A DNA stretch of 64,000 bases from positions 262,543 to 326,542 of the forward strand of contig NZ_FOMH01000001.1 in assembly GCF_900112575.1 (NCBI RefSeq), read 5' to 3'. The translations under genes were made by a program, and so were the position numbers. The stretch's first letter is position 1, and each line of letters begins with the position of its first letter. This document shows positions 21,001-22,336 of the stretch, piece by piece. The notes under the pieces are model-generated. The model worked only from the letters and a program-made list of their open reading frames with translations, ran no database searches and was not told the DNA's origin. This DNA is from Flavobacterium phragmitis (GTDB lineage: Bacteria > Bacteroidota > Bacteroidia > Flavobacteriales > Flavobacteriaceae).

Positions 21001-21768
21001 ATGAATGATTTAGTATCTATTCTTACACCGACATACAATACTGAAAAGTTCATTAGAGCAACTATAGAATCTGTTCAAAATCAAACCTATGAAAACTGGG
21101 AAATGATTTTGGTTGATGATGGTTCAACAGACCAGACGGTTTCTGTTATCGAAGAATTTGCCCAAAAAGATTCCAAAATAAAAGTATTCAAATTAGAAAA
21201 AAATTCAGGAAATGGTTTTGCCAGAAATGTGGCTTTAGATAAAGCTTCTGGAAAATATATCGCTTATCTGGATTCGGATGATTTATGGCGCTCCGATAAA
21301 TTAGAAAAACAAATTCAGTTCTTAAAAGCGAAGAATCTGCATTTTACTTTTAGTTATTACGATTGTATTGGCGAAGAAGGAAATGATTTAAATAGAAGAG
21401 TTGAAAATCCACAGCCGTTAACTTATAAACAATTGTTTTTCTGCAATTATGTAGGCAATCTCACGGCAATTTATGATGCAGAATACTTTGGAAAAATCAA
21501 ATTAGAATCCTCCCAAAAAAGACAAGACTGGAGAATATGGCTGACGATATTGAAACAGATAAAAACTGCAGAAGCTATTCCAGAACCTTTAGCATTTTAT
21601 AGGATAAGAAAAGATTCTATTTCATCGTCAAAATTCAAATTGATCAAACACAATTTTGGAGTTTATAGAGAATTTCATGGATATAATCTTGTTTTTTCGA
21701 TTTTTTTGATGATGAGATTTTTGTTTACTCAGTTGATAATCAAAACAAAATATATAAAGGAAGTTTAA
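21001..21768 (+). CDS. glycosyltransferase family 2
   Basis: A 255-residue GT-A enzyme: VSILTPTYNTEKFIRATIESVQ at the start, ILVDDGSTD (about 37-45) and YLDSDDLW (about 90-97) with the DxD metal site. The C-terminal half carries QKRQDWRIWL and PLAFYRIRKDSIS, as in TuaG-like enzymes of surface glycan assembly. A 13-bp-stem hairpin begins seven bases after its stop and is followed by a T-rich run, so transcription probably ends there. Confidence 0.9.
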   Translation: MNDLVSILTPTYNTEKFIRATIESVQNQTYENWEMILVDDGSTDQTVSVIEEFAQKDSKIKVFKLEKNSGNGFARNVALDKASGKYIAYLDSDDLWRSDKLEKQIQFLKAKNLHFTFSYYDCIGEEGNDLNRRVENPQPLTYKQLFFCNYVGNLTAIYDAEYFGKIKLESSQKRQDWRIWLTILKQIKTAEAIPEPLAFYRIRKDSISSSKFKLIKHNFGVYREFHGYNLVFSIFLMMRFLFTQLIIKTKYIKEV

Positions 21769-21774
21769 ATATCC

Positions 21775-21801
21775 TTCAAGGTCGCAATTTGCGACCTTGA
21801 A
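21775..21801 (+). terminator. perfect palindrome acting as terminator; ORF6N-associated repeat
   Basis: TTCAAGGTCGCAA (21775-21787) and TTGCGACCTTGAA (21789-21801) are perfect inverted arms around a single T. T-rich sequence (ATTATTTTTTATAA) follows on the plus strand. It lies between the convergent glycosyltransferase and ORF6N pseudogene. Its core resembles the palindrome inside the pseudogene at 22109-22137. Confidence 0.7.
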
Positions 21802-21805
21802 GAAA

Positions 21806-22336
21806 TTATTTTTTATAACCAATCTTCACTCTTTCAGTCTTATTTTCTTTTTTCTCAGTTAATTCATCTAAATAAGAAAATACCAATTCAATATTTTTAT
21901 CATGATTCTCTAATTTCTTCTGAATCTGCATAATATCAACCTTGATTTCGGTTGTATCCAAAAGCATTTGTCTCACTTTCGTGAAAATCCTCATAATTTG
22001 AATATTGGTTTGGATTGCTTTGTCACTTTTTAGAACGCTTTACAACATTAAGACACCGTGTTCTGTAAAAGCAAAAGGTAAGTATTTTTGATATTTACCT
22101 CTTCCTTTCTCTAAGGTCACAATTTGTGACCTTAGAGAATTGTATTCTATCTTAGTAAGTTCAAACATGAAATCGTCAGGAAATCTTGATAAATTTCTTT
22201 TAACGGCTTGTTTTAATACTTTAGTTTCTATTCCTTAAAGTAATGCTAGATCACTATCCATCATCACTTTTTGTCCACGAATAAAGTATATTTTATTAGA
22301 AATTGTTTCTTCAGAAAGTAGAGCGTTATCGTTCAT
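21806..22336 (-). pseudogene. ORF6N-domain (KilA-N-like) regulator, broken by two stop codons
   Basis: Read on the minus strand from the ATG at 22336, one frame gives the whole ORF6N architecture. It begins NDNALLSEETISNKIYFIRG and SDLALL, then TAA at 22235-22237. It continues GIETKVLKQAVKRNLSRFP and KYLPFAFTEHGVLML, then TAA at 22040-22042, and ends with IQIMRIFTKVRQMLLD and the charged tail. Family members normally have LYG where the first stop is and a residue such as Ser at the second, so each can be a point mutation; there is no frameshift. ORF6N proteins are DNA-binding domains shared with phages. The gene is decayed, and the last 62 residues alone should not be called a gene. Confidence 0.85.
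22109..22137 (-). repeat. palindrome inside the ORF6N pseudogene
   Basis: CTCTAAGGTCACAA (22109-22122) and TTGTGACCTTAGAG (22124-22137) are perfect 14-bp arms around one T. It encodes the family segment LRSQIVTLE. Compared with the palindrome at 21775-21801 the G:C pair next to the centre is A:T on both sides, a compensatory change. Confidence 0.75.

Follow-up and report, generated by a model that had tools for sequence, protein, structure and literature searches.

The window, that is, the whole 64,000-nucleotide stretch of Flavobacterium phragmitis DNA that was analysed, contains an ORF6N-domain (PF10543) pseudogene, a convergent glycosyltransferase-like gene, which we take to be of the family-2 type, and two palindromes (Table 1). 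The pseudogene scores 109 bits against a curated Pfam cut-off of 27.8 and thus belongs to the ORF6N family despite its two stop codons; it is the sole ORF6N match of its genome (6.04 Mb, 24 contigs). The inner palindrome codes within NSLRSQIVTLEK, in the pseudogene frame on the minus strand. The outer palindrome starts 3 bp past the pseudogene stop codon, between the pseudogene and the glycosyltransferase gene.

Table 1 Features of the locus, with positions in the window
Feature	Position	Strand	Details
Convergent glycosyltransferase-like gene, marker of the orthologous locus	21001..21768	+	stop at 21768
Outer palindrome, free-standing, 3' of the ORF6N stop	21774..21802	.	inverted repeat I2, 14+1+14 = 29 bp, 100%
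ORF6N-domain (PF10543) pseudogene	~21806..22336	-	Pfam E 6.8e-31, two in-frame TAA within domain
In-frame TAA	22040..22042	-	read from sequence and ORF pieces
Specificity-loop codons GRGKYQKYLP, directly after the palindrome-coded segment	22076..22105	-	loop class GRGxYxK goes with arm TCTAA
Inner palindrome, intragenic (predicted self-site)	22107..22139	.	perfect inverted repeat I1, 16+1+16 = 33 bp, 100%
Predicted recognition-helix codons K30 V31 L K Q34 A V K R38	22196..22222	-	homologue model and mutual information
In-frame TAA	22235..22237	-	read from sequence

The arms of both palindromes are fully complementary, far above chance level. Common to the two is AAGGTCxCAATTTGxGACCTT, in which the variable pair is A:T in the inner and G:C in the outer copy, with the symmetry preserved in each. 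A sequence-only reading of this DNA had pointed out such paired palindromes with a compensatory change; they proved to be perfect and slightly longer than it had proposed. The half-site is TCTAA-GGTCAC-AA in the inner and TTCAA-GGTCGC-AA in the outer palindrome. Searching the own genome at up to 2 mismatches revealed no additional copies, so that the total is two.

A dyad inside ORF6N coding sequences

In nearly all genes examined, a dyad of about 27 bp (13-bp half-sites and one central base) is kept at one place in the ORF6N reading frame. Among 71 genes sampled without use of the motif, 57 were palindromic at this site with a score of at least 9 (22 of 26 from Bacteroidota, 25 of 31 from IMG/VR and 10 of 14 from plasmids), and control windows before and after the site never reached that score. 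The genus set, drawn from genomes of the window's own genus and partly chosen by the motif, comprised 106 palindromic genes out of 113, versus 13 of 113 control windows before and 1 of 113 after the site; for genus genes found by family search alone the figure was 75 of 81 (controls 6 and 1). For GTDB genes chosen by pattern, a score of at least 9 was reached in 3 of 73 control windows placed after the site. ORF6N genes that lack a palindrome there, which the sequence-only reading had named as an argument against its own proposal, do exist (for example L402, L404 and L432) but form a minority in the motif-free sample as well as in the blind set described below.

ORF6N was present in 149 of 249 genus genomes and 112 of 247 class genomes, and the degenerate palindrome core in 87 of the 249 genus genomes. 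The motif keeps close to ORF6N genes: 73 of the 75 genus occurrences listed, from 52 genomes, lay within 1.5 kb of one. A scan of GTDB yielded at least 119 stretches with a pattern match. Of the 135 occurrences among the listed matches, 73 fell inside an ORF6N domain and 29 no more than 1.5 kb away from one, the remaining 33 having none nearby; all 73 intra-domain occurrences among these matches were symmetric at the free position. The scored ORF6N genes represent 15 named phyla.

The sites themselves are diverse (GGTCGC, GGTCAC, GGTTCC, GGTGCC, GGTGCA, GGTCGA, GGTATC and others, with several outer arms), and the dyad persists though sequence, coded peptide and even reading frame differ between genes. 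Two common peptides, xRSQ[FI][VA]T and V[AT]NCD[RH], are one palindrome read in two frames. Two tandem palindromes inside a single ORF6N frame were seen in L041 (gene nt 188-237), L142, L401 and L382, sometimes in two frames; in L142, one of them codes for FVT, its own type, and the second for IAT, another type.

Pairing between the arms was 0.84-1.00 at positions d2-d13 in 250 of 261 genes, the analysis being confined to sites scoring at least 6 (11 genes with a score below 6 or an even centre were left out). It dropped to 0.60 at d14 and d15 and reached background by d16. In 68 genes from outside the genus, sampled without the motif, pairing at d2-d13 was 0.72-1.00. Synonymous shuffles of the same proteins gave 0.21-0.66, except for 0.99 at d3. 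Motif-free samples and shuffles, together with the blind set and the synonymous codons presented below, identify a conserved DNA-level site inside a coding sequence.

Protein residues and site bases

A single protein residue, H34, covaries with those bases of the left arm that lie close to the centre: Gln goes with CAC (106/108), Glu with CGC (81/82), Lys with TCC (14/14) and Arg with GCC (10/11). This correspondence holds in both reading frames among 217 usable genes, 44 of 261 having been left out (24 without a match to the helix pattern, 20 with a palindrome score below 8). When mutual information was calculated between the aligned columns before the site and the 13 base positions, H38 ranked top for d3, H31 and H34 for d4, H34 for d5, and H30 for d7 and d8; no helix-type partner emerged for d9-d13 among these columns. 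Arg at H38 goes with C (239/240), and Asn, Ser or His with A (9/9). Lys at H30 goes with G at d7 in 196 of 196 genes regardless of H34, so that the positions are modular; any other residue goes with A (52/69) or G (17/69), as counted under a stricter helix pattern that left out 73 of 355 genes. Given their spacing, residues 30, 31, 34 and 38 are predicted to lie on one face of one helix.

Positions d9-d13 covary with the loop that follows the palindrome-coded segment. The loop [WY]GGxR is accompanied by CTTGA, SxKMGLR by TTGGA, GRGxHxK by TTTAA, GRGxNxK by TTCAA and GRGxYxK by TCTAA.

Sites and proteins switch type in concert. In a tree from which the helix and site columns had been omitted, the Glu/Gln residue changed 43 times and the base 42 times, with 187 of 190 genes in agreement. 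Eleven supported pairs of independent switches went in the same direction in 10.7 cases on average and in opposite directions in none (median p ~0.001). Helix and site are about 75 nt apart, and inheritance as a block could therefore add to the association.

Could the helix and the loop covary structurally with the peptide that the palindrome encodes, the DNA merely following? Segment and helix do share one domain, and some of the coded residues track the code (Val versus Ala versus Gly before Thr). Codon choice contradicts such protein-level covariation. The Ser codon before CAA is TCG in 85 of 86 Glu-34 genes and TCA in 99 of 100 Gln-34 genes; in the other frame, all 7 E-type genes use TGC for Cys, and 12 of 13 Q-type genes use TGT; and for Leu, TTG accompanies Asn in the loop in 23 of 24 genes, and TTA accompanies His, Tyr or Phe in 52 of 52 (268 of 355 genes usable, 87 left out). 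Since these differences are synonymous, covariation at the protein level cannot account for the code. In addition, the code is kept in the second frame with other amino acids, and the symmetry exceeds that of synonymous shuffles. We consider an explanation by protein structure alone extremely improbable.

In a second approach, rules were written down before new genes were fetched. All 94 new genes belonged to the same class as the window; the helix pattern matched 88 (6 had no match), 4 of these 88 were not scored, and the site was placed by symmetry alone. As many as 86 of the 88 genes reached 10 of 13 pairs; among equal control windows, 1 of 88 did so when placed before the site and 3 of 84 when placed after it. 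The H34 rule predicted both halves correctly in 79 of 84 genes and one half in 3, and was wrong in 2 (permuted mean 27.4, maximum 43); the H38 rule predicted both halves in 82 of 84. The rule linking H30 to d7 was weaker (both halves 66/84, one half 11, wrong 7). The loop rules held for both half-sites of 48 of 56 genes (permuted mean 18.2, maximum 30), without an outright miss among 54 scored blind genes. Beyond the class, 51 of 56 scored genes from other phyla fitted in both halves, in a pattern-scan set that was chosen by the motif, and so did all 18 scored genes of the unbiased IMG/VR and plasmid samples, from which the stricter helix pattern excluded most others.

Both copies in the window fold strongly as RNA (z -6.4 to -7.5). 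An mRNA hairpin acting as attenuator, translation control or terminator would agree with this folding and with the terminator-like scores on the plus strand. The inner copy's match on that strand is opposite to the ORF6N gene, and among the imperfect pairs over d1-d13, G.T did not exceed A.C (37 versus 57), which speaks against an mRNA hairpin. Such a hairpin would also leave the helix-to-base code unexplained, and we regard it as very unlikely. For the outer copy, which the sequence-only reading had called a terminator, a terminator-like match was found on the plus strand only, with a strong stem, an interrupted T tract and the tail AAATTATTTT. This match supports the label weakly and does not establish it.

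Applied to the pseudogene, the rules return its inner palindrome exactly: the helix residues K30, V31, Q34 and R38 and the loop GRGKYQK give TCTAA-GGTCAC, the pseudogene having been part of the gene set from which the rules were drawn. The earlier suggestion that the palindrome is an ORF6N recognition site is thereby strongly supported for the inner copy, judging by a residue-to-base code that spans phyla and by rules fixed beforehand. Taken as a whole, the sequence-only interpretation proved largely right and applies more widely than it had supposed; our reading is that the inner palindrome is in all likelihood the DNA-binding site of the ORF6N protein encoded by its gene. For the family, it is very probable from the covariation that an ORF6N protein binds a site inside its own gene.

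A structure was predicted for the Flavobacterium glycines relative L179 (176 aa, 48 aligned relatives, mean pLDDT 84.5). The model has helices at 27-34 and 38-47, with the code residues K39, R40, E43 and R47 all on the second. The segment encoded by the palindrome forms a low-confidence loop at about 71-80 (mean pLDDT 55), and a long helix at 105-161 could be a dimer handle in this model. Within the families on its own list, VIA-align placed a granulovirus Orf22 domain, Ski/Dachshund and Mbp1/APSES nearest (Z 4.5-6.7, below the level of a clear match), and partition proteins and RacA near Z 5, none of them a clear match either. Foldseek returned no match to the model at E<=0.001, and a sequence search of solved structures gave nothing better than E=0.2.

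Palindromes outside the genes

Palindromes are also enriched beside ORF6N genes. In six sets (a seventh, of 3 genes, was too small), their density within 300 bp upstream was 0.51-1.11 per kb versus 0.03-0.24 further off, and most ORF6N genes lack an upstream copy. Downstream density was 2.86 per kb in the genus set and moderate in three others (0.38-0.66), with no enrichment in IMG/VR (0.12 versus 0.11) or plasmid genes (0.24 versus 0.22). Outside the genus set, upstream copies matched the gene's own site in 20 of 52 cases (permuted mean 6.3), and downstream copies marginally (5/22, permuted 2.3, P 0.04). Within it, the own site was matched by 3 of 16 upstream (permuted 2.8) and 26 of 89 downstream copies (permuted 29.7), and the flanking copies showed no excess of matches to the code of the adjacent gene (d4 base 42/97, permuted 39). 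Because these genus copies do not fit that gene's code, we rejected the idea that they are simple auxiliary operators of the adjacent gene.

At the glycosyltransferase locus, downstream copies in the genus form arrays of up to seven units, some of them decayed. Most of their half-sites (160 of 194) are identical over 12 nt to half-sites of ORF6N genes, and units within one array differ from each other, with 1 same-type pair out of 144 (permuted 9.1). By eye, the arrays downstream of ORF6N in L078, L106, L112, L075 and L128 tend towards a recurring order of ttct-, cttga- and ttgga-type arms, with a period of about 130-160 bp at some of these loci. Array units as silent donor cassettes for the variable loop were considered and rejected, loop-coding sequence not being seen by eye in the linkers of ten loci and the resemblance of unit flanks to genes being modest (values below).

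The outer palindrome of the window belongs with these copies. Its half-site TTCAA-GGTCGC fits a different ORF6N type, with Glu at H34 and a GRGxNxK loop, and not the adjacent gene. We compared 30 of the 47 loci with a relative of the glycosyltransferase gene: ORF6N lay beside it in 22 genomes, with several different site types, and the remaining 8 loci, with glycosyltransferases of at most 65% identity, had neither ORF6N nor such palindromes. Over 27 bp, the outer palindrome is identical to the intragenic site of the same-locus ORF6N genes L538, L542, L543 and L552. Since it is not cognate to its neighbour and is identical to the ORF6N sites of four relatives at the same locus, it looks like a relic or foreign ORF6N site. 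The proposal that the palindrome was copied out of an ORF6N gene is borne out in part, by this identity in 4 of 30 loci and by some sharing of flanks. For free-standing copies in general, flank similarity to genes is modest (left 0.50 versus 0.35 shuffled, right 0.35 versus 0.26; 69 of 97 units, with named arm classes and equal arms only). That the outer copies originated as relics is our tentative view, held with slightly less than even confidence.

Certain external palindromes far exceed 13 bp, with arms of up to 22, which would be in keeping with template switching that perfects palindromes without any involvement of binding. Such a mutational origin cannot explain residue-specific bases across phyla or the loss of symmetry past d13, and we regard it as highly improbable, while template switching may still help to keep the arms perfect.

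REP/RAYT and Rickettsia palindromic elements are short palindromes in and around genes. Are the ORF6N palindromes likewise a short mobile element, moved by ORF6N or another protein? Several copies surround the gene, two sometimes share a frame (L041, L142, L401), and palindromes occur at a few loci without an ORF6N gene (L129, L170). Unlike those elements, the ORF6N palindromes are undispersed and lie mostly at ORF6N loci, as the two copies in the own genome and the listed genus occurrences illustrate; they are absent from the eight glycosyltransferase loci that lack ORF6N, and the Pfam matches of 4 ORF6N relatives contain no transposase domain. A REP/RAYT element was rejected on these grounds, and mobility of the palindromes in any such form is very unlikely.

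Some palindromes of the ORF6N type occur in fetched stretches that hold no ORF6N gene (L170, with seemingly three in a row, L171 and L129) and are possible remnants. In viral contigs, 4 of 120 pattern matches lay in or near ORF6N, and 100 of the other 116 were symmetric at the free position; by eye, several matches away from ORF6N precede T runs, and some may be terminators.

External copies could also act as decoys, or as immunity sites when ORF6N genes of a different specificity come in. The non-redundancy of the arrays would fit, as would the finding that 0 of 97 units are identical to the own site in both halves (permuted 1.6), and ectopic copies of lambda Ori are reported to block the phage (PMC4488673). 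The avoidance of the own site is not significant, the copies lie mostly at ORF6N loci and some units have decayed. We consider a decoy role unlikely, if worth keeping in mind.

Proposed function and related systems

ORF6N would bind the dyad in double-stranded DNA as a dimer held together by the long C-terminal helix, and each subunit would use its helix and loop to read one half-site. When bound inside its own gene, and in some genes also at a cognate site upstream, the protein would limit its own transcription, and an ORF6N gene that moves between genomes would carry its own control. We infer that autoregulation is the simplest use of a self-site, one that the cognate upstream copies fit; autoregulation through the own-gene site appears slightly more likely than not. 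The outer palindrome and the genus arrays would belong to other ORF6N types and most likely date from earlier alleles at a glycosyltransferase locus where ORF6N specificity keeps changing. Tentatively, and with a little less than even confidence, ORF6N genes may be pan-bacterial self-addressed genes, whose own-frame 27-bp dyad would be essentially the only target, read by a simple, evolvable code that would let the specificity of every member be deduced from its own DNA and perhaps reprogrammed, and whose repeated switching of specificity at a locus would leave old sites as arrays.

The family is almost unstudied and named solely by its domain. It is scarce in named phage records (5 of 50,697). 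Several assignments point towards phage antirepressors and KilA-N, APSES or Rha-like proteins: PHROGs labels ORF6N relatives 'anti-repressor', there is weak similarity to Phage_pRha, under its Pfam cut-off, and APSES is among the VIA-align neighbours given above. Searching the literature, short of full texts, we found no published report of a self-site inside a gene of these groups, nor a match for an intragenic operator combined with autoregulation. In PADLOC, four ORF6N relatives match PDC-S05 (E 1e-52 to 1e-70), a label that we take to denote a phage defence candidate only, the defence role being putative.

Several plasmid neighbourhoods were recorded. On a Treponema saccharophilum plasmid (L438), a class I DNA methyltransferase gene, accompanied by a small winged-helix gene, lies on one side of ORF6N and the gene for a restriction endonuclease subunit S on the other. 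The two annotated genes of a 4.1-kb Segatella copri plasmid (L443) are ORF6N and a replication initiator, and a second S. copri plasmid, of 2.96 kb, likewise has ORF6N. A Parabacteroides distasonis plasmid (L446) carries three tandem ORF6N genes of differing palindrome types. On an Alistipes indistinctus plasmid (L447), the neighbour of ORF6N is a putative phage abortive infection gene, and a KilA-N gene lies close by.

An auxiliary lac operator lies within lacZ, and ORF6N genes similarly have a palindromic, putative operator in coding DNA. Unlike in the lac case, almost every member examined has this site in the gene of the regulator itself, and the site changes with the specificity of the protein. 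Lambda-type initiators and origins pair type-specifically. The nearest precedent for a predicted site inside the protein's own coding sequence is lambda Ori, which lies within the phage lambda O gene (PMC4488673). Unlike lambda O and its origin, where there are four 19-bp repeats, ORF6N usually has one 27-bp dyad, occurs in many bacterial phyla and follows a residue-level code.

By analogy with lambda, whose arrangement is the closest known logic, ORF6N might bind its own gene as an initiator or partition-like protein that starts replication or segregates an element, and the 4.1-kb S. copri plasmid would suit this. A rep gene was found near ORF6N in 1 of the 12 plasmid regions looked at, and the usual site is a single dyad rather than an iteron row with an AT-rich stretch; we therefore hold such a role to be rather unlikely.

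If ORF6N proteins bind the dyad in their own genes, the family would gain a function and a mechanism, and every ORF6N gene would supply the binding site of its protein as known. The family would then be one of the few natural collections from which a protein-DNA recognition code can be studied, and designable DNA-binding proteins might be drawn from it. A further consequence would be that a constraint at the DNA level can determine which peptide a conserved protein segment has and even the frame in which it is read, and the purpose of the self-target, as well as that of the foreign sites at some loci, would become directly testable.
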